This document shows, in pieces, positions 23,345-33,039 of a stretch of DNA of 57,319 nt. A model generated the notes under the pieces. That model saw nothing but the letters and a program-made list of their open reading frames with translations, was not told the DNA's origin and made no database searches. The position numbers were made by a program, and so were the translations under genes. Position 1 is the stretch's first letter, and every line of letters starts with the position of its first letter. The DNA comes from Anaeroplasma bactoclasticum (GTDB taxonomy: Bacteria > Bacillota_I > Bacilli_A > Acholeplasmatales > Anaeroplasmataceae): positions 1 through 57,319 of the forward strand of contig JAMPGQ010000005.1 in NCBI GenBank assembly GCA_023663825.1. Reading direction: 5' to 3'.

Positions 23345-24178
23345 TTAGGAAATTGTAAGTTGATATAGAATTTCCATAGTTGTTACACTAACGGGTGCAT
23401 AGGCTAATGCTTCTATTGAAAACGGAAGTTCTTCGATTACTTGAAAAGAAATTAATTTTTCATTAATTTTAAGTTGTTCCTTACAATTTTCTAATCGTTT
23501 TTGATAAGGACAGTACTTCAATTGCTGATATAATTCTTCTATAGATGCATAACAGTTTACGAGTTTGGCTGCAGTAACAGGGCCGATTTTATATATTCCC
23601 TTGATATTATCTGCAGAATCTCCAACCAAAGATTTATAAAAGATGTATTTATCTGGTGTAATATGCAGTTTATCTTTGAGATATTGTTTATCACAAATAT
23701 AGCTTTTCTTTCCTCGATATCTGTAGATTTTCACTCTTTCATTAATTAAACTAAAATAATCACTATCCCAAGAAGCAATAACAATTTCCATTTGAGTTTG
23801 ATAGGTTTTTGTATAGCTTGCAATATAATCATCTACTTCAAAGTCTTGTATTTCTTTGAAAGGAATGTTTAAAAAATCTAATGCTTTATATATATCTGGC
23901 AATTGTTGAAATGGTGTATCCTCTACTGGCATAGTAGAATAATCAATACGATTGGCTTTATACTCTTTATAAAAAGTATTTCTTGGATTTTCATGTTCTC
24001 CATCAAATAAAACACAGATGTGTGTAGGTTGTGTTGCAGTAATAATTTTTCTTAAAGCTCCAACAAAGCCTAAGATTCCTTGTATAGGCTTACCCTCTTT
24101 ATTGATAATACGTGAAGGCATTCCATAAAACATTTGAAAAAGTAGATTACTGCCATCTACTAATAATAGTTTTTCCAT
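23345..24178 (-). CDS. 5'-3' exonuclease (polymerase I-type 5' nuclease / FEN domain, YpcP/Xni-like)
   Basis: 277 residues; a stand-alone structure-specific 5' nuclease that removes RNA primers or flaps. Motifs in order: LLVDGSNLLFQMFYG with the first metal-binding Asp, FDGE, the arch region, FEVDDYIASY, ASWDSDYFSL, and the helix-hairpin-helix GDSADNIKGIYKIGPVTAAKL. No polymerase domain is attached, and the length matches B. subtilis YpcP. I chose the ATG at 24178 (MEKLLLVDGS), which lies just after the stop of the upstream esterase gene. The frame is open nine codons further, but family proteins begin here. Confidence 0.9.
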   Translation of the reverse strand: MEKLLLVDGSNLLFQMFYGMPSRIINKEGKPIQGILGFVGALRKIITATQPTHICVLFDGEHENPRNTFYKEYKANRIDYSTMPVEDTPFQQLPDIYKALDFLNIPFKEIQDFEVDDYIASYTKTYQTQMEIVIASWDSDYFSLINERVKIYRYRGKKSYICDKQYLKDKLHITPDKYIFYKSLVGDSADNIKGIYKIGPVTAAKLVNCYASIEELYQQLKYCPYQKRLENCKEQLKINEKLISFQVIEELPFSIEALAYAPVSVTTMEILYQLTIS

Positions 24179-24179
24179 A

Positions 24180-24965
24180 TTAGCTTCTATAAATAATGTT
24201 ATCAAAGTACATAAAGCTAAAGAAATCTAAAAGCTGACCTTCCCAGGTAGCTTCATTATGAATTCCAGAATCACTAACAACTAAACGCACCTTTCCATTT
24301 CGTTCTTTTGCAAAATGATACAAATCTAGGCTAGTACTATAGTAAAGCTTTTGGTCATAAGAACCATCTGAGGATTCTTTTTTTCCGACATATAAAAATA
24401 GCTTTATATTTGGATTGAAATTTTCTTCTAAGAAAGCATCAACAGCTTCTTTACAAAGGAAGGTTGCAGTTGAGAAGGCTCCGATTCCTTGGAAGGCATT
24501 ATATTGGTAGCCTAAATAAATTGCAGTCATAGCTGCCAAAGAAGAACCATATATAAATCTTGTATGGGTTGTAGGATACCTTTTTTCTATGTATGGAATG
24601 ATGGTATTAATCAAATCCTTGCAAAAATTGTGACAGATAGTTGTGTTTTGTTTTTCCCATTCTTTAGAAGCGGCATTTGTGATTTTAAAAGGCGTGTATT
24701 CATTAATTCTTCCCATTTCTGATTCTGCATTATAGATTGCTATGCCTAAGATTTTACGATTGGTTATATAAGACATATAACCCATATATTTAGTAGCTCT
24801 AATTGCACGATTAAAGGCTGCATGTGAATCCTTAAATGCATTTTGACCATCTAGAAAATATATAGAATCAAATTGAATATTTTTATCGTAGTATCTTGGC
24901 AAAGAGATTTCTATTTTAACCTCTTTTTTACTTTTAGGTAAATATAGTTTTAAATGTTCAATCAT
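24180..24965 (-). CDS. Putative esterase, alpha/beta hydrolase (esterase D / enterochelin esterase-like)
   Basis: 261 residues of the putative-esterase family: an early DGQNAF motif, the nucleophile elbow GSSLAAM, and a C-terminal catalytic His in SGIHNEATWEGQL. No signal peptide, so cytoplasmic. The start at 24965 is set by AAGGTGG 8 nt upstream; the frame is open 17 codons further without a site. It is followed at once by the exonuclease gene, so the two are co-transcribed although functionally unrelated. The natural substrate is unknown. Confidence 0.8.
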   Translation of the reverse strand: MIEHLKLYLPKSKKEVKIEISLPRYYDKNIQFDSIYFLDGQNAFKDSHAAFNRAIRATKYMGYMSYITNRKILGIAIYNAESEMGRINEYTPFKITNAASKEWEKQNTTICHNFCKDLINTIIPYIEKRYPTTHTRFIYGSSLAAMTAIYLGYQYNAFQGIGAFSTATFLCKEAVDAFLEENFNPNIKLFLYVGKKESSDGSYDQKLYYSTSLDLYHFAKERNGKVRLVVSDSGIHNEATWEGQLLDFFSFMYFDNIIYRS

Positions 24966-25708: not shown

Positions 25709-25752
25709 TTGTTCAAAGCATTCTTGTATTTGAACAAGCAATTTGTTAAAAT
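25709..25752 (+). promoter_or_regulatory. Promoter overlapped by a 9-bp-arm palindrome, DUF1538/P-II operon
   Basis: Arms TTGTTCAAA (25709-25717) and TTTGAACAA (25729-25737) are perfect inverted repeats with an 11-nt spacer. The likely -35, TTGTAT (25724-25729), lies inside the palindrome; after a 17-nt spacer comes TAAAAT (25747-25752). A repressor bound there would block RNA polymerase. The regulator is unknown. Confidence 0.6.
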
Positions 25753-25780
25753 AATAAGTTGTGATAAGGAGTTGTTAAAG

Positions 25781-27310
25781 TTGTTGAAGTTATTATGGAT
25801 TAAAATTAAAGAAGCATTAATGTCAGTACTACCTGTGACCATTATAGTTATGATTTTATATTTTACTCCTTTAGTTCGTTTGACAAATTATGAATTGATT
25901 GTTTTTATCGTATCAGCAATCTTATTAATATTAGGTATTGGATTATTTAACCTAGGAGCAGACATGGCTATGCAGCCTATGGGGGAACAGGTTGGAGCTT
26001 CTTTGATGAAGTCGAAAAAGATTAAAATTATTGTCTTAGTATGTTTTGTTATGGGAGTTTTAATCACGATTGCAGAACCTGATTTGTCTGTTCTTGCAAG
26101 TCAAGTTTCAGAGGTGATTAATTCAGTAGTTTTAATGGCGTCTGTTGGAGTTGGTGTAGGTTTGTTTTTAGTCCTTGCCATCTTGAAGATTATTTTTAAG
26201 AAAGACTTGTCCTTAATGTTGATGTTTTTCTACATGCTGATGTTTGCATTTGTAGGGTTAGTTATTTTAAGTGGCAATGGTAATTTCTTATCCTTGGCCT
26301 TTGATTCTGGAGGTGTTACAACAGGTCCAATCACAGTACCATTTATTATGGCACTTGGTGTTGGTATTGCTGCAACTATTGGGGGAAGAAATGCTAGTGA
26401 AAATAGTTTTGGTTTAATTGCGTTATGTTCTGTAGGGCCTATTTTAGCAATTCTTATTTTAGGAGCCACAATGAAAGGAGATATTCCTTATGCAGATCCT
26501 AATTATGTCGTAAATCCTGATTTTTGGGGTGAATTCTTTTCAATATTAGGAAATGTTTCTAAGGAAGTTATTATAGCGTTAAGCTTAATTGTAGTATTCT
26601 TTATGATTATAGAACTGATCTTTATTAAGCTACCAAAGAAAAAACTAATTCAGATTGCCATAGGTATTGCATATACCTTTGTTGGTTTGGTCATCTTTTT
26701 GACGGCAGTGAATATAGGATTTTTACCGATAGGATTTAAAATGGGAAAATGTATTGCTGAGTTTCATCCTGCATATTTAATTATATTTGGATTTGTTTTA
26801 GGCTTTGTAGTCGTTTTAGCAGAGCCTGCAGTTCATGTATTAAATAAACAGGTTGAAGAAATCACCAATGGTGGCGTTTCTAAAAGAGCTATGCTTATTG
26901 CTTTAGCTATTGGTGTAGGTATTTCCATTGGATTATCTATGATTCGATTGGTATTTGATTTCTCTATTTTATTTTATATTATTCCTGGATATTTTATATC
27001 CTTGGGATTATCGTTCTTTGTCCCTAAGATGTATACAGCAATTGCCTTTGACTCAGGTGGTGTTGCTTCTGGACCATTGACATCAAGCTTTATATTGCCA
27101 TTTGCCATAGGAGCATGTATTTCTTTATATGATGGTCCTACTAAGGTCTTAAATGATGCATTTGGTATCGTTGCAATGGTTGCGATGACACCACTTATAA
27201 CGATTCAATTGTTAGGCTTTAAGGCTGTATTTGTAAAGCAGATGAAGGAAAAGACAAGAATGAAGAAAATCATCAGTGCTGATGATGAGCAAATCATTCG
27301 CTTTATGTAG
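25781..27310 (+). CDS. DUF1538 membrane protein with internal duplication (putative ion transporter)
   Basis: 509 residues, about 12 hydrophobic segments. Two homologous halves are visible: AFDSGGVTTGPITVPFI near residue 173 repeats as AFDSGGVASGPLTSSFI near 423, and AEPDLSVLASQV near 98 repeats as AEPAVHVLNKQV near 347. Each half thus keeps a conserved membrane-embedded Asp and Glu, as expected of an ion-coupled carrier. DUF1538 proteins have, as I recall, been reported as Na+/H+ antiporters in a halophile (UmpA/UmpB); that is family knowledge, not shown here. I prefer TTG 25781, 9 nt after AAGGAG; there is no ATG nearby. Two P-II-like genes follow directly. Confidence 0.82.
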   Translation: MLKLLWIKIKEALMSVLPVTIIVMILYFTPLVRLTNYELIVFIVSAILLILGIGLFNLGADMAMQPMGEQVGASLMKSKKIKIIVLVCFVMGVLITIAEPDLSVLASQVSEVINSVVLMASVGVGVGLFLVLAILKIIFKKDLSLMLMFFYMLMFAFVGLVILSGNGNFLSLAFDSGGVTTGPITVPFIMALGVGIAATIGGRNASENSFGLIALCSVGPILAILILGATMKGDIPYADPNYVVNPDFWGEFFSILGNVSKEVIIALSLIVVFFMIIELIFIKLPKKKLIQIAIGIAYTFVGLVIFLTAVNIGFLPIGFKMGKCIAEFHPAYLIIFGFVLGFVVVLAEPAVHVLNKQVEEITNGGVSKRAMLIALAIGVGISIGLSMIRLVFDFSILFYIIPGYFISLGLSFFVPKMYTAIAFDSGGVASGPLTSSFILPFAIGACISLYDGPTKVLNDAFGIVAMVAMTPLITIQLLGFKAVFVKQMKEKTRMKKIISADDEQIIRFM

Positions 27311-27319
27311 GTGAGAAAT

Positions 27320-27742
27320 ATGTCAGAAACAAAAACAGTAAAAAGAAAAGAAAAAAAGAATTCTGTTGTTAAAAGGGTAGAAGGATTAACTGCTCCTAAG
27401 AAACTAAAGATTTTAGTGACAATAGTGGAGCGTTCTAAAGCGGATTTCTATTTAGACACTTTAGAAGGCTATGATGTTAATCTTCAAACTGTAATTTATG
27501 GTAAAGGGACTGCCCCAACAGAAATGCTTCAATATTTAGGGTTATCTCAGTTAGGCAAAGCAGTAATTTTCAGCATTGTTCAAGAGGATAACATAAAAAA
27601 AATTTTAGCAGATTATGAGGATAAATATTTTAAAACGAAAAATGGTAAAGGAATTGCCTTTACTATTCCAATCTCATCTGTGATTGGAGTTATGGTTTAT
27701 CAATTTTTAAGCAATACTATAGAAGGCGTAAGAGGTGAATAA
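27320..27742 (+). CDS. P-II-like regulatory protein, first of a pair
   Basis: 140 residues. After a basic, lysine-rich N-terminal tail of about 28 residues (KRKEKKNSVVKR) comes a P-II-like ferredoxin fold: KLKILVTIVERSKADFYLDTL, a strand-turn with YGKGTAP, and GKGIAFTIPISSVIGV. The GKGTAP turn stands where canonical P-II proteins have the T-loop. The uridylylated Tyr51 context of GlnB/GlnK is absent, so GlnD control is unlikely. ATG 27320 follows GGTGAG, 9 nt after the DUF1538 stop. Likely role: sensing a nucleotide or small molecule and gating the DUF1538 protein, as GlnK does for AmtB (inference). Confidence 0.75.
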   Translation: MSETKTVKRKEKKNSVVKRVEGLTAPKKLKILVTIVERSKADFYLDTLEGYDVNLQTVIYGKGTAPTEMLQYLGLSQLGKAVIFSIVQEDNIKKILADYEDKYFKTKNGKGIAFTIPISSVIGVMVYQFLSNTIEGVRGE

Positions 27743-27743
27743 T

Positions 27744-28091
27744 ATGGGACAATTTGAATTAATATTTTGCATTGTAGATGCTGGTTTTTCTGATAGTGTT
27801 ATGTCAGCAGCAAGAGAATGTGGTGCTAGAGGTGGTACAGTGTTAAATGCACGTGGTACTGCCAGAGAAGATGCAGAAAAGCTATTTAATATATCTATTC
27901 AGCCTGAAAAAGAAATTGTTCTTATCTTGGCAAGTAATGATATCAAGGATAATATCCTTCATGCAATTTATAAGAATGTTGGATTAAATACATCTGCACA
28001 GGGAATTGCTTTCAGTTTGCCAGTAGATGATGTTGTAGGACTTACAACACCAGCAATTAAGCCAGAAGAAGTAAAACCATTAGAAGAATAA
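27744..28091 (+). CDS. P-II-like regulatory protein, second of a pair
   Basis: 115 residues, close to canonical P-II length. MGQFELIFCIVDAGFSDSVMSAARECGARGGTVLNARGT resembles the P-II start (strand, helix, G-x-RG turn), and SAQGIAFSLPVDDVVGL resembles the C-terminal strand. The T-loop is shortened and has no Tyr51-type site. It differs clearly from the upstream P-II-like gene, so the two may form a heterotrimer or respond to different signals. AGAGGTGA precedes ATG 27744, one base after the previous stop. A terminator follows, which makes the operon exactly three genes. Confidence 0.8.
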   Translation: MGQFELIFCIVDAGFSDSVMSAARECGARGGTVLNARGTAREDAEKLFNISIQPEKEIVLILASNDIKDNILHAIYKNVGLNTSAQGIAFSLPVDDVVGLTTPAIKPEEVKPLEE

Positions 28092-28093
28092 TA

Positions 28094-28121
28094 AGTCAAC
28101 TTAAGGGTTGGCTTTTTATTT
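28094..28121 (+). terminator. Terminator of the DUF1538/P-II operon
   Basis: AGTCAAC (28094-28100) with GTTGGCT (28107-28113), one G-U pair, then TTTTTATTT. Confidence 0.7.
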
Positions 28122-28428: not shown

Positions 28429-31400
28429 GTGAAAGTAAAAAAATTATTAACTGCATTTTTGTTATTATTTGCTACTGCTGGGTTGATTACTACAACTAGC
28501 TGTAAAGATAATACAGATACTCATCAAGAAGAAACTGAGAAGTATACAGTTACTTTTGATTCTGCTGGGGGTAGTGCTGTTACCTCTCAAAGCGTTTTAA
28601 AGAATAACAAAATTACAAAGCCAACAGATCCTACGAAAGATGGATATGTATTTGGTGGTTGGTATAAGGAGGCAGACTGTAAAAATTCTTGGAATTTTAA
28701 TACAGATACTGTAACAGGTGCTGTTACACTTTATGCAAAGTGGACAGAAGAGGTCAAGACTAAAAAATTTACAGTTACTTTTGACTCAGACGGAGGTAGT
28801 ACTGTTGCCTCTTTAAGCATTGAGAAGAATGGTAAGGTTACAAAGCCAACAGATCCTACAAAAGAGGGATATACCTTTGATGGTTGGTTTAATGGTTCTA
28901 CTGAATATAATTTTAATGATCCAGTTACTGAACCATTAACTTTAAAAGCTCATTGGACAAAAATTGAAGTTGCATTTACGGCAACCTTAAAGTATGATAA
29001 TGGCGCTGATGATGGAAAATTAACAGCAGCTAAGACAGAAGATAAGTGGTTCTTTACCAAGCCTACTGACCCTGTAAAGGATGATCATACCTTTGATGCT
29101 TGGTACACAGAAGCAGGAGATCTATTCGACTTTACAAAGCCAGTTACTGCTAATGTAGTATTAGTTGCACATTATACTCCAGTTGAACATGGACCAAAGG
29201 CAACTTTAGTTTATAATAATGGGGAAGCTGATGGGGAATTACTTGCTGTAAAGGTTGGAGAAGCTTGGTTTTTTGAAAAACCAACAGATCCACATAAGGA
29301 TTACTTTACCTTTGCTGGATGGTATACTGATGTAGAATTGAAAACACCATTTAACTTCGATAATGAGGTTGATAGTGATATGCCTTTATATGCAAAATGG
29401 AATACTGCATATGATACAATCACTACAACTTGGGATTTTGTTAAGGGTGCTACTGCAATTAAAGAAAATCCAAGTGGAAATGTTACTTTGACAGCTGATA
29501 CTCTATTCCAAGGTAAATTCTTATTAGGAGCAAATGCTCGTTTTGAAATTGGCTCAAAGAATGCTATCAATACACAAAAGAAAACCCTAGAGGTTACATT
29601 GAGTGGTACAGGCACAAGCAACGCAATGACCTTCAATGGCAAATGGAGTTCTTCTAATGATGGGTACTTCAAGTTTATTAACAAAAAGACTGGAGAAGTT
29701 GTATATGATAGTGGAACCCTAAAAAATAATGCTGAATTTTCTACTTCTATAACAAATTTACCAGCAGGTACTTATGCTATAGAATCTAATGGTTCTGTAC
29801 GTTTCTATGCATTCTCTATTACTGAGGAGCTTCCACAGAGTCCTGTTTCAGATATTACCTTAAATACATCTGCTCTTGCAACAAATGTATTATTAGGTAG
29901 ACCATTTGATAAAACAGGCTTAACCGTTTCTTTATCCTATGAAAATGGTCGTGAGGACTTATTAGATTTAGATAAGGTATCTATTATTGTTCCTACTGAT
30001 TTTACTACGACTGCTGGTGTTAAGACAATTACTGTTGAATATCAAGCAGATAGTACACATAAATATACTAAAACCTTCAATATCAATGTATGTGAAACTG
30101 AAGAAATCGTATTATATGATTATGTAATGGATAGTAAACGTCTAGCAAAGCCTTTACAGGTTATATACGAAAGAAATGCTGAAAAGCTTGATACATCTAA
30201 TTTAGTTGTAAAGGCTAGATGCTTAGCTCCTGGTTCTACTACAGAATATATTGAGTTTATCTTAGATGCTAAGGAATATACTATTAGCAATGTTGATTTC
30301 AATACCCTTGGTAGCAAGACAGTTACAGTTACCTATGCTGAAGAGTTTACAAAATCATATGATATTGAAGTTGTAAATTATTCAACAATACAGGATAGAC
30401 CAATGACAGTTTCTGTTGATCCTACTTTAGAGGTGGTTTCCTTTAGCTTTGAACAGGAATACAACTTCCACACTATTAATCAAGCTTTACAGTTCATCAG
30501 ACTTTTAGAGCCTTATGATACTTGCGTTAAGACAATCGTTTTAAAAGAGGGTGCTGTTTATAACGAAAAGGTAGTTATTGATATACCTAATGTTATTCTT
30601 ACTACAAATACAGAAAGAACCTATACTGGTGATTGGAGCTATGATAATGAGGAAGTTCAAAATGTTTGGGCTGGCTATGCTACAATTGAATACGATTCTT
30701 TCAATGGTTTACTTGACCCAAGTGAAACAATCACTCATAGTACAAATGGTTCTGCAACAGTAACAATTACTCCTGAAGCAGTAAATTTCAAGGCTTCTAA
30801 GGTTAACTTCAAGCATTCTTGTAATACAAGTGAATTATACCAAGAAATCTTAAAGAAAACGAATGGTACACAGGGTGTTGCTTTATTAGTACAAGGCGAT
30901 AGAGCATCCTTTACAGATTGTACCTTCACAGGCTATCAGGATACCCTATACGCACAGGTTGGTCGTCAATATTATAAGAACTGCTTAATTGAAGGTCATA
31001 CAGACTATATCTTCGGTTATAATGCAACTGCTTTATTTGATGAATGTATTATTCGTCAAATTGGTGCTGGTAAGACAGCAGCTGAAAATAGCAACTATAA
31101 CAATGGTGGATATATTGTTTCAACAAAGGGCTTCAGCAAAAATGATGAAACTGACGGCATTGAATATGGATATGTATTTACTAATTCCCAGTTTATCGCT
31201 GATGATAAGACAGCTGACGGCTCTGTATCTATTGCACGTAGCTGGGATAGTAATATGAGAATTATGGTTATGAACTCATACTTAGATAAGCATATCTCTA
31301 AGGAAGCATTTGGTGAAGTAACTGCTGGTGGTTCTAAGAATATGAATGATCGTTATGGTGAAATGAATTCTAATACTCTTAAACCAGCATTCTTATTAGA

Positions 31401-32352
31401 ATATAATAATACTGGTGCTGGGGCAATTAGTGAAAACCTAACAAATACTTGTACTTATGCTGATTCTAGTACAGCTAGCAAATATCTTGATGTAAATGTT
31501 ATCTTCACTCCATTTAATCGTAATTTAACCTATGACCTTCCTTGGAATCCTACTAAAGAAGCAGATGCTTATATTTTATTTAAAGACCAAAATGGTGACA
31601 ATGTAGGAATAATAGGTGGAGATAGAACTCCTAATAAGTCTATTGCTTGGGTTGGTGGCGTAGTCACTGAAAAGGCTCTTAATTCTGTAAAAGCATATTT
31701 AGAGGCTATAATGAATGGTCCAAAAACCATCTTAGGCTTCTATCAGGATCAAGCTTGTACGACTCCTGTTGATTACAAGAATATGATATTAACAGAGGGT
31801 GTGGGTGTAGAGCACTGCCAAAATATTATTTATGCTAAGATAGTAGATGGTATCGTTAAGCAGACAGAAACCTTTAATGCTAACACAACAAACTATACAG
31901 CTTCTACTGGTACTGACGGTAAGCCTGCTGGTACAAGTTTAAGAGATAATCAATATACAGGTACTTCATTTACTGTTGTTGCCGGTGGTAGTGGTGATAC
32001 TAAGGCTGCTACACTTGGAATGACTGCAACCGCAAATGATGATTCTGGCTTAACCTTTAACACTGCGTTCGTTCCAGGAGGAAGTGGACGTACCTATACA
32101 ATTACCGCTACTCAAAAGATTACAATTAAAATTTATTATACTGTTTCTAATGGCGATATTTGTACGGCAACTTCTGCCTTTACAAAAGTTGGTGAGTTAA
32201 CGTATGATGGTACCATTGTAACAAGTGTTGGCAATAAATCAAATAATGTAGCTTACTGCTGTGAATTAGAATTAAATGCAGGTCAATCTTTTGTACTTGG
32301 TACTGATTCTTCAGACCGTTTAATACTATTCGGTATTGTAGCTGAATATTAA
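28429..32352 (+). CDS. Multidomain lipoprotein pectinesterase (carbohydrate esterase family 8)
   Basis: 1307 residues, starting at GTG with GGAAGG upstream. N-terminal signal and Cys27 in a lipoprotein-like context (ITTTSC) suggest membrane anchoring. Four Listeria-Bacteroides/InlB-type repeats span about residues 36-325, each ending in a GW-Y...KW-type motif. Next come a carbohydrate-binding-like beta domain (about 330-480) and two bacterial Ig-like domains (to about 655). The CE8 catalytic beta-helix follows with GYQDTLYA (near 834, acid/base Asp), GHTDYIFG (near 856, nucleophile Asp) and IARSWDS (near 934; family LGRPW). A second beta domain ends the protein. It demethylates pectin at the cell surface; products could reach the uxaBAC route. 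No pectate lyase is in the window. Confidence 0.93.
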   Translation: MKVKKLLTAFLLLFATAGLITTTSCKDNTDTHQEETEKYTVTFDSAGGSAVTSQSVLKNNKITKPTDPTKDGYVFGGWYKEADCKNSWNFNTDTVTGAVTLYAKWTEEVKTKKFTVTFDSDGGSTVASLSIEKNGKVTKPTDPTKEGYTFDGWFNGSTEYNFNDPVTEPLTLKAHWTKIEVAFTATLKYDNGADDGKLTAAKTEDKWFFTKPTDPVKDDHTFDAWYTEAGDLFDFTKPVTANVVLVAHYTPVEHGPKATLVYNNGEADGELLAVKVGEAWFFEKPTDPHKDYFTFAGWYTDVELKTPFNFDNEVDSDMPLYAKWNTAYDTITTTWDFVKGATAIKENPSGNVTLTADTLFQGKFLLGANARFEIGSKNAINTQKKTLEVTLSGTGTSNAMTFNGKWSSSNDGYFKFINKKTGEVVYDSGTLKNNAEFSTSITNLPAGTYAIESNGSVRFYAFSITEELPQSPVSDITLNTSALATNVLLGRPFDKTGLTVSLSYENGREDLLDLDKVSIIVPTDFTTTAGVKTITVEYQADSTHKYTKTFNINVCETEEIVLYDYVMDSKRLAKPLQVIYERNAEKLDTSNLVVKARCLAPGSTTEYIEFILDAKEYTISNVDFNTLGSKTVTVTYAEEFTKSYDIEVVNYSTIQDRPMTVSVDPTLEVVSFSFEQEYNFHTINQALQFIRLLEPYDTCVKTIVLKEGAVYNEKVVIDIPNVILTTNTERTYTGDWSYDNEEVQNVWAGYATIEYDSFNGLLDPSETITHSTNGSATVTITPEAVNFKASKVNFKHSCNTSELYQEILKKTNGTQGVALLVQGDRASFTDCTFTGYQDTLYAQVGRQYYKNCLIEGHTDYIFGYNATALFDECIIRQIGAGKTAAENSNYNNGGYIVSTKGFSKNDETDGIEYGYVFTNSQFIADDKTADGSVSIARSWDSNMRIMVMNSYLDKHISKEAFGEVTAGGSKNMNDRYGEMNSNTLKPAFLLEYNNTGAGAISENLTNTCTYADSSTASKYLDVNVIFTPFNRNLTYDLPWNPTKEADAYILFKDQNGDNVGIIGGDRTPNKSIAWVGGVVTEKALNSVKAYLEAIMNGPKTILGFYQDQACTTPVDYKNMILTEGVGVEHCQNIIYAKIVDGIVKQTETFNANTTNYTASTGTDGKPAGTSLRDNQYTGTSFTVVAGGSGDTKAATLGMTATANDDSGLTFNTAFVPGGSGRTYTITATQKITIKIYYTVSNGDICTATSAFTKVGELTYDGTIVTSVGNKSNNVAYCCELELNAGQSFVLGTDSSDRLILFGIVAEY

Positions 32353-32359
32353 AATTAAG

Positions 32360-32390
32360 AATACTCAATCCTTTGGATTGGGTATTTTTT
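32360..32390. terminator. Terminator of the pectinesterase gene
   Basis: 12-bp stem, arms 32360-32371 and 32375-32386 with one G-U pair and a TTT loop, then TTTT. It overlaps the end of the convergent amidase gene by two bases. Confidence 0.85.
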
Positions 32391-33039
32391 AATATAATTT
32401 TAAATAATCTTCAACACCATAAAGCAGGGCATAGGCTAACTTATATTGATATTCCTCAGTTTGTAGTAACTGAAGCTCCTCCTTATTGGACATAAAGCCA
32501 CATTCAATAATACAACAAGGAATAGTCACTTTGTTTAATAAAAATATATTATCACGCTTTACTATTTTTCTTTCTGTATTCTTTAAATAATTGCATAAGC
32601 TAGCCTGCATTATTTCTGCAAGAAGCTGATTGTTTGAATTTGTTTTACTATAAAATACTTGAGCTCCACGATATTTTTCTATACTAAATTTATTTAGATG
32701 TATTGATAAAGCTAAAAAAGCAGAGGAAGTATTGATTTTATTGACACGTTTTAGCATATCCTCTCTTTTTACAAAATCGCCATCACTTAAATCGTCTGAT
32801 GTATCTCTAGTTAAAACCACCTGTATAGAATTGTTTTCAAATACTTCTTTAACCTTTTTTGATATTTCTAAAGTCAGTTCAGATTCTTTGATATTACCTA
32901 CAGTAGCTCCTCCATCTATACCACCATGACCAGGATCTATGTATACAACTAAAGGATTTTCCTCTGCTAATATTTTAGTAGTAAAAATAACAAAGGCTAT
33001 ACATATGAATAAAAATATGAATAAATATCGTTTTTTCAA
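32389..33039 (-). CDS. N-acetylmuramoyl-L-alanine amidase (amidase_3, CwlD-like)
   Basis: 216 residues with an N-terminal signal/anchor (residues 4-25) and one amidase_3 domain. Zinc ligands and catalytic residues: His in DPGHGG, Glu in KESELTLE, His in LSIHLNK and Glu in IIECGFMSN. Size and lack of cell-wall-binding repeats resemble CwlD, which helps make muramic lactam in spore cortex, but a general cell-wall hydrolase is possible and no sporulation gene is nearby. TTG 33039 is the start, preceded by AGGTGA. Transcribed convergently to the pectinesterase. Confidence 0.85.
   Translation of the reverse strand: MKKRYLFIFLFICIAFVIFTTKILAEENPLVVYIDPGHGGIDGGATVGNIKESELTLEISKKVKEVFENNSIQVVLTRDTSDDLSDGDFVKREDMLKRVNKINTSSAFLALSIHLNKFSIEKYRGAQVFYSKTNSNNQLLAEIMQASLCNYLKNTERKIVKRDNIFLLNKVTIPCCIIECGFMSNKEELQLLQTEEYQYKLAYALLYGVEDYLKLY

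Follow-up and report, generated by a model that had tools for sequence, protein, structure and literature searches.

Few bacterial sensors have been studied as much as the P-II proteins, but the transporters reviewed as being gated by them form a short list, comprising the Amt channels, the ABC importers for nitrate and urea, and SbtA, and this mode of control is said to be limited to transporters acting as trimers (PMC10710835). In methanogens, two different P-II proteins encoded side by side, NifI1 and NifI2, share one target, the nitrogenase (PMC8809328). Among DUF1538 membrane proteins, UmpAB of Halomonas zhaodongensis is the sole pair for which a bench study was found, from one laboratory and on one halophile. 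A study of 2017 found UmpAB to be an antiporter of Na+(Li+, K+) and H+ that acts as a heterodimer; it was obtained on a 4.2-kb clone, the last gene of which is umpB and which is active in E. coli, and P-II proteins are nowhere mentioned in that report (PMC5484666).

A full-text search of open-licence papers, in which five name DUF1538 and nine match UmpAB (in part through unrelated uses of these letters), returned no link between DUF1538 or UmpAB and P-II proteins, though subscription journals or preprints could hold one; papers on Thioalkalivibrio and Arthrobacter that name a “P-II family nitrogen regulator” were rejected, as they concern GlnK-Amt. The DUF1538 family, the P-II family and P-II gating are already known, and what is new is their pairing together with the doubling of the P-II protein. 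The original prediction of a little-described system is to be divided in the same way: it holds for the P-II partnership, which is unreported in the searched literature, but not for the carrier, given its characterised kin UmpAB (PMC5484666).

The unit described here lies in a stretch of 57,319 nucleotides (“the window”, meaning the whole stretch of DNA that was analysed) from a genome of 2.06 Mb in 98 contigs, which is 96% complete. The DUF1538 gene is followed by the genes of two P-II-like proteins, PA and PB, all three on the plus strand, and a terminator-like hairpin comes last. The features are as follows:

25781..27310, plus strand: DUF1538 membrane protein, 509 aa, with PF07556 twice (E 4.7e-125); fusion of a UmpA-like N-half and a UmpB-like C-half
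26072..26107, plus strand: N-half motif 1, AEPDLSVLASQV, with invariant E99, placed by AlphaFold2 (AF2) at the break of a discontinuous helix
26300..26329, plus strand: N-half motif 2, FDSGGVTTGP, with invariant D175, placed by AF2 at a second discontinuous helix
26819..26854, plus strand: C-half motif 1, AEPAVHVLNKQV, with invariant E348
27047..27076, plus strand: C-half motif 2, FDSGGVASGP, with invariant D424
27320..27742, plus strand: PA, first P-II-like protein, 140 aa; PF00543 at 24.8-25.1 bits, AF2 model compared by Foldseek
27497..27553, plus strand: T-loop region of PA, YGKGTAPTEMLQYLGLSQL, with a dip in pLDDT; GTA and LG positions conserved in 118 homologues
27744..28091, plus strand: PB, second P-II-like protein, 115 aa, from ATG 27744; PF00543 at 29.1 bits, aligned with PA by hhalign
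27849..27908, plus strand: T-loop region of PB, ARGTAREDAEKLFNISIQPE, its pattern conserved in 118 homologues
28093..28121, plus strand: intrinsic-terminator-like hairpin with T-run, ending the operon

We regard it as somewhat better than an even prospect that this unit encodes an antiporter of the UmpAB type for monovalent cations and protons, which would be gated by a dedicated pair of P-II proteins; transport, gating and ligand are all inferred.

Gene starts were refined by means of ribosome-binding sites and comparison with relatives. The original prediction had the unit opening at 25709, which is where the open reading frame begins but is an unlikely gene start, since AAGGAG at 25766-25771, read as the ribosome-binding site, and the ATG used in L008, a close relative, both indicate TTG 25781 as the probable start of the DUF1538 gene. 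For PA, the start is most likely ATG 27320, rather than GTG 27311 where its reading frame opens, and PB begins at ATG 27744. The proposed closure of the operon by a terminator was borne out by a hairpin and T-run, this being one of four terminator-like sites in the region (1.6 expected) and the one located just 3' of the PB stop. The promoter scan was uninformative, with 19 sites against 18 expected. An Rfam search was negative for the region preceding the operon as well as at the DUF1538 genes of 12 relatives; T-box and glycine riboswitch matches in the loci of these relatives were dismissed as candidates for riboswitch control, as they fall elsewhere, away from DUF1538.

The operon is neighboured by exonuclease, esterase, pectinesterase-like and amidase genes. 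The adjoining gene (28429-32352, plus strand) encodes a protein of 1307 aa in which four Listeria-Bacteroides repeats are combined with an Ig-like Big_3 and a pectinesterase domain, while on the minus strand a stand-alone 5'-3' exonuclease of the DNA polymerase I N-terminal type is encoded at 23345-24205 by a gene devoid of a polymerase domain. Also on the minus strand, at 32389-33039, lies an N-acetylmuramoyl-L-alanine amidase gene (Amidase_3), which would be odd in an organism without a cell wall; the nearest named relative, a metagenome-assembled genome (MAG) with a DUF1538 protein 85% identical to that of the window, belongs to the Anaeroplasmataceae (Mollicutes in the NCBI taxonomy).

The two PF07556 domains of the DUF1538 protein reach 415.3 bits against a cut-off of 22.6. 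Its predicted duplicate FDSGGV and AEP motifs were all four located, and the acidic residue foreseen in each of them (E99, D175, E348 and D424) proved invariant across 74 aligned relatives. The proposal that the protein consists of two fused homologous halves likewise stood: in a tree of half-proteins (n = 64), N-halves group with separate UmpA proteins and C-halves with separate UmpB proteins at 100/100 support, the UmpA and UmpB rows being separate genes from Methylocystis, Bacteroidota-like genomes and Bacillota, with Halomonas itself outside the tree. Judged by sequence, this clean split identifies the window protein as a UmpA-UmpB fusion. With UmpAB it, thus, shares PF07556, the two homologous halves and the grouping of these halves with UmpA-like and UmpB-like proteins; it differs in being one fused chain, in its scores under the NCBI equivalog cut-offs and in that its antiport is predicted only. 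The NCBIfam equivalog models for UmpA and UmpB yielded 153.6 and 122.2 bits, far below the cut-offs of 490 and 500, which the Methylocystis umpA-umpB pair likewise fails to reach; therefore, the ion transported by the fused protein may be a different one.

The AF2 model of the DUF1538 protein comprises 14 main helices (mean pLDDT 90.3, pTM 0.89), with two broken helices per half close to the AEP and FDSGG motifs. Compared with the PDB and a viral library, the full-length model gave no fold match at E <= 0.001; its best PDB matches are unrelated (TM about 0.1-0.2), and SbtA is absent among the matches listed. Going by this whole-protein model, the predicted fold appears to be unrepresented in the PDB. 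These results bear on a rather unlikely alternative, according to which the P-II pair does gate DUF1538 while the cargo is not Na+ or K+ exchanged for protons but ammonium, bicarbonate, another inorganic ion or a small metabolite, the activity in Halomonas being a special case or a side activity. Such a cargo would agree with the low equivalog scores, with a fold that has no solved counterpart to fix the substrate, with the ammonium, bicarbonate, nitrate and urea carried by known P-II-gated transporters, and with the many gut fermenters, rather than halophiles, among the bacteria carrying the operon; however, the invariant acidic residues and the status of the halves as true UmpA and UmpB orthologues favour a shared cation mechanism.

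The putative gates of the cation/proton antiporter, PA and PB, match PF00543 as the two distinct P-II-like proteins originally predicted, PA with E 2.9e-5 and 24.8 bits (25.1 bits when the genome was searched; the cut-off is 25), and PB with E 1.3e-6 and a score above the cut-off. They are homologous to each other (hhalign E 6.9e-17). PA, which starts with a basic tail of about 25 residues, is modelled by AF2 in the beta-alpha-beta-beta-alpha-beta fold, and Foldseek pairs this model with P-II, CPII, SbtB and GlnK structures at a probability of 1.00 and a TM of about 0.6-0.7, so that structure prediction confirmed the P-II fold for PA. The low pLDDT of its T-loop region is expected of a flexible T-loop. 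PB is assigned to the P-II superfamily by its Pfam match and its profile homology to PA. Searched against PDB sequences, the profile of PA returned one weak, unrelated match only; the profile of PB has a weak match to SbtB. Residues G14, G30 and K56 of PB are invariant in the 118 homologues, and the conservation patterns of the T-loops of PA and PB are distinct. Absent from both proteins are the canonical T-loop uridylylation motif Y-[KR]-G-[AS]-[AE]-Y and the GDGKIF B-loop, in place of which GKGIAF and AQGIAF are found.

According to the PF00543 genome search, PA and PB are the only P-II genes of the whole genome. The predicted lack of an ammonium transporter, too, extends to the whole genome, where Amt (PF00909) has zero matches at E up to 1, while it is present in 14/14 control genomes. 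A diadenylate cyclase (c-di-AMP synthase) is encoded.

Like GlnK-AmtB, the locus unites transporter and P-II genes in one operon, and the P-II T-loop would be the gate; in contrast, its carrier is DUF1538 in a genome without Amt, it has two P-II genes instead of one, and the canonical T-loop tyrosine motif is missing. SbtA-SbtB resembles it as a non-ammonium carrier with a P-II-like partner, given the match of PA to SbtB and CPII structures and the weak SbtB match of the PB profile, but DUF1538 has no fold match to any solved transporter, and PA and PB lack the C-terminal redox loop of the SbtB type. With NifI1-NifI2, it has in common two different adjacent P-II genes, which, however, adjoin a membrane carrier gene in an operon without nif genes.

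Conserved linkage in relatives, named beforehand, like the P-II fold, as a check on the original prediction, was found across phyla. In the first survey, a P-II gene adjoins DUF1538 at every locus; 116 loci show the order DUF1538-PA-PB, the rest mostly encode DUF1538 and one protein with two P-II domains, and a few are cut at contig ends. Gene order and strand are identical at all complete DUF1538-PA-PB loci (115/115), where the two gaps between genes have medians of 8 and -1 nt. Of the 392 genomes sampled in the phylum, 95 contain DUF1538 and 98 yield a strong match to PB: both are present in 94, DUF1538 only in 1, PB only in 4 and neither in 293. This association is far above chance (Fisher p about 1e-84, with kinship between genomes ignored), and PB lies on the DUF1538 contig, at most 1.4 kb away, in 85/85 genomes compared. 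In a second phylum, inferred from MAG titles and TonB-receptor-like neighbours to be the Bacteroidota, clear DUF1538 was detected in 9/247 genomes, with P-II domains next door in 9/9, one protein among them having three. Alphaproteobacterial plasmids of Methylocystis and Chelativorans carry umpA-umpB and one PB-type P-II gene, the Chelativorans umpA being incomplete as annotated; plasmid searches for further proteobacterial loci yielded nothing beyond the same nine records. DUF1538 with a two-domain P-II protein was found in Paraclostridium, Peptoclostridium, Vescimonas, Acetoanaerobium and Subdoligranulum, and such two-domain proteins stand beside DUF1538 in Clostridia and in Bacteroidota-like genomes. 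Since the scan of named genomes covers the best 80 loci by likeness to the query, the unbiased evidence is that of the 392- and 247-genome samples. The joint occurrence of carrier and P-II sensors in at least three phyla suggests that P-II proteins are used to switch the carrier.

The number of P-II proteins varies. The original prediction of dual P-II control is matched by the two genes found here, but it is not universal, with one gene in Alphaproteobacteria and three P-II genes or domains at some loci. At one locus (L175:370-3389), the DUF1538 protein has 626 aa and the protein encoded after it has 380 aa and three P-II domains; at another (L154:2037-4388), separate umpA and umpB genes are preceded by three individual P-II genes. 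In the P-II tree, the resolution of which is limited by few columns, the first domains of most two-domain proteins group with PA and the second domains mostly with PB, and the single alphaproteobacterial P-II, which scores as PB-type, falls with weak support among the second-domain (PB-like) sequences of the second phylum. MAGs titled Bacteroidales, Bacteroidia or Fibrobacter (L065, L080, L082, L086, L095, L101, L105) contain operons with DUF1538 about 60% identical to that of the window, suggesting horizontal transfer or misassigned contigs.

That mere chance or selfish-operon drift brought the three genes together, with products that do not interact, is very improbable and strongly disfavoured by the order kept at every complete locus, by the co-loss and co-gain in the 392 genomes and by the recurrence of this association, under different gene architectures, in distant phyla. 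What it can draw upon is the AF2 prediction for a joined DUF1538-PA chain (the TAG stop read as a residue), with a pTM of 0.79 that lies between rough expectations of ~0.73 for free and ~0.87 for firmly docked partners and, so, fits neither state clearly. A joined DUF1538-PA-PB chain of a relative (L041) was discarded because the alignment slid PA onto PB. The distance correlation among DUF1538, PA and PB (0.61-0.76) reflects mostly shared ancestry and is no evidence of contact.

The exceptions to the pairing are few. The sole genome with DUF1538 only (G211) has a fragment match only. Four genomes of one family are without any DUF1538 match but possess an intact PA-PB pair, which follows a gene for an RluA-type pseudouridine synthase (L145:3343-4054, L146:2871-3592, L147:2821-3541 and L148:3136-3856; in L146, the RluA-type gene is near rather than beside the pair). 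Sister genomes have RluA-DUF1538-P-II at the same site; it appears that the four genomes lost DUF1538 and kept the pair. The pair can, therefore, act without this carrier, and these orphans are the strongest observation against DUF1538 as its only target and a warning against a simple one-target model. In one further genome, a second P-II pair directly precedes genes for an ABC ATPase and a UPF0014 (FetB-like) permease (L155:2192-4291), possibly another P-II-controlled transporter; the same genome also carries DUF1538 with a two-domain P-II protein (L156).

The main role of DUF1538 might be that of a sensor or anchor in the membrane by which PA and PB are sequestered and released, their real target being elsewhere in the cell. 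We deem this improbable. The orphan pairs and the P-II pair before the UPF0014-kind transporter would fit it, as would the several targets that P-II proteins can have (PMC10710835), but both genes are present in 94 of the 99 genomes having either and are adjacent wherever compared, and the genome showed no further P-II target of a known kind, Amt being the kind tested.

In the preferred reading of a P-II-gated antiporter, UmpA and UmpB would be fused as one 14-helix cation/proton antiporter, while PA and PB, made together in fixed order, would probably act as a pair. They would bind a cytoplasmic small molecule, candidates being an adenine nucleotide, c-di-AMP and 2-oxoglutarate, and, depending on the bound ligand, dock by their T-loops on the cytoplasmic side of the antiporter, thereby turning it off or on, so that the exchange of cations and the pH could be matched to the cell's energy or signalling state. 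Transport by the fused protein is proposed by analogy with Halomonas UmpAB, and its direct gating by analogy with GlnK-AmtB and SbtB-SbtA. Given that a clone ending at umpB suffices for UmpAB activity in E. coli, a P-II partner is unnecessary for activity, and inhibition is, therefore, a more natural default than activation. Counting against this reading are the orphan P-II pairs, the low equivalog scores, the joined DUF1538-PA model without clear docking, the single bench study on the family, and the heterodimer reported for UmpAB, as opposed to the stated restriction of P-II gating to trimers (PMC10710835).

More broadly, the locus may represent a widespread class of P-II-controlled ion antiporters, in which an unequal P-II hetero-assembly on a carrier of unsolved, not obviously trimeric fold ties the adenylate, c-di-AMP or 2-oxoglutarate status to cation/proton exchange; this we put forward tentatively, at less than even expectation. 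With a P-II partner conserved next to a family of cation/proton antiporters in three or more phyla, ion and pH homeostasis would join the P-II-gated processes, and P-II gating would, if this is true, extend past trimeric nutrient transporters. It would also explain the “nitrogen regulator” annotated beside DUF1538 genes in organisms without ammonium transporters. The DUF1538 family, whose only functional study had no P-II gene, gains a directly testable regulation, for which the forms with one P-II protein (Alphaproteobacteria) and with three P-II domains (L175) are natural variants for dissecting the gate.
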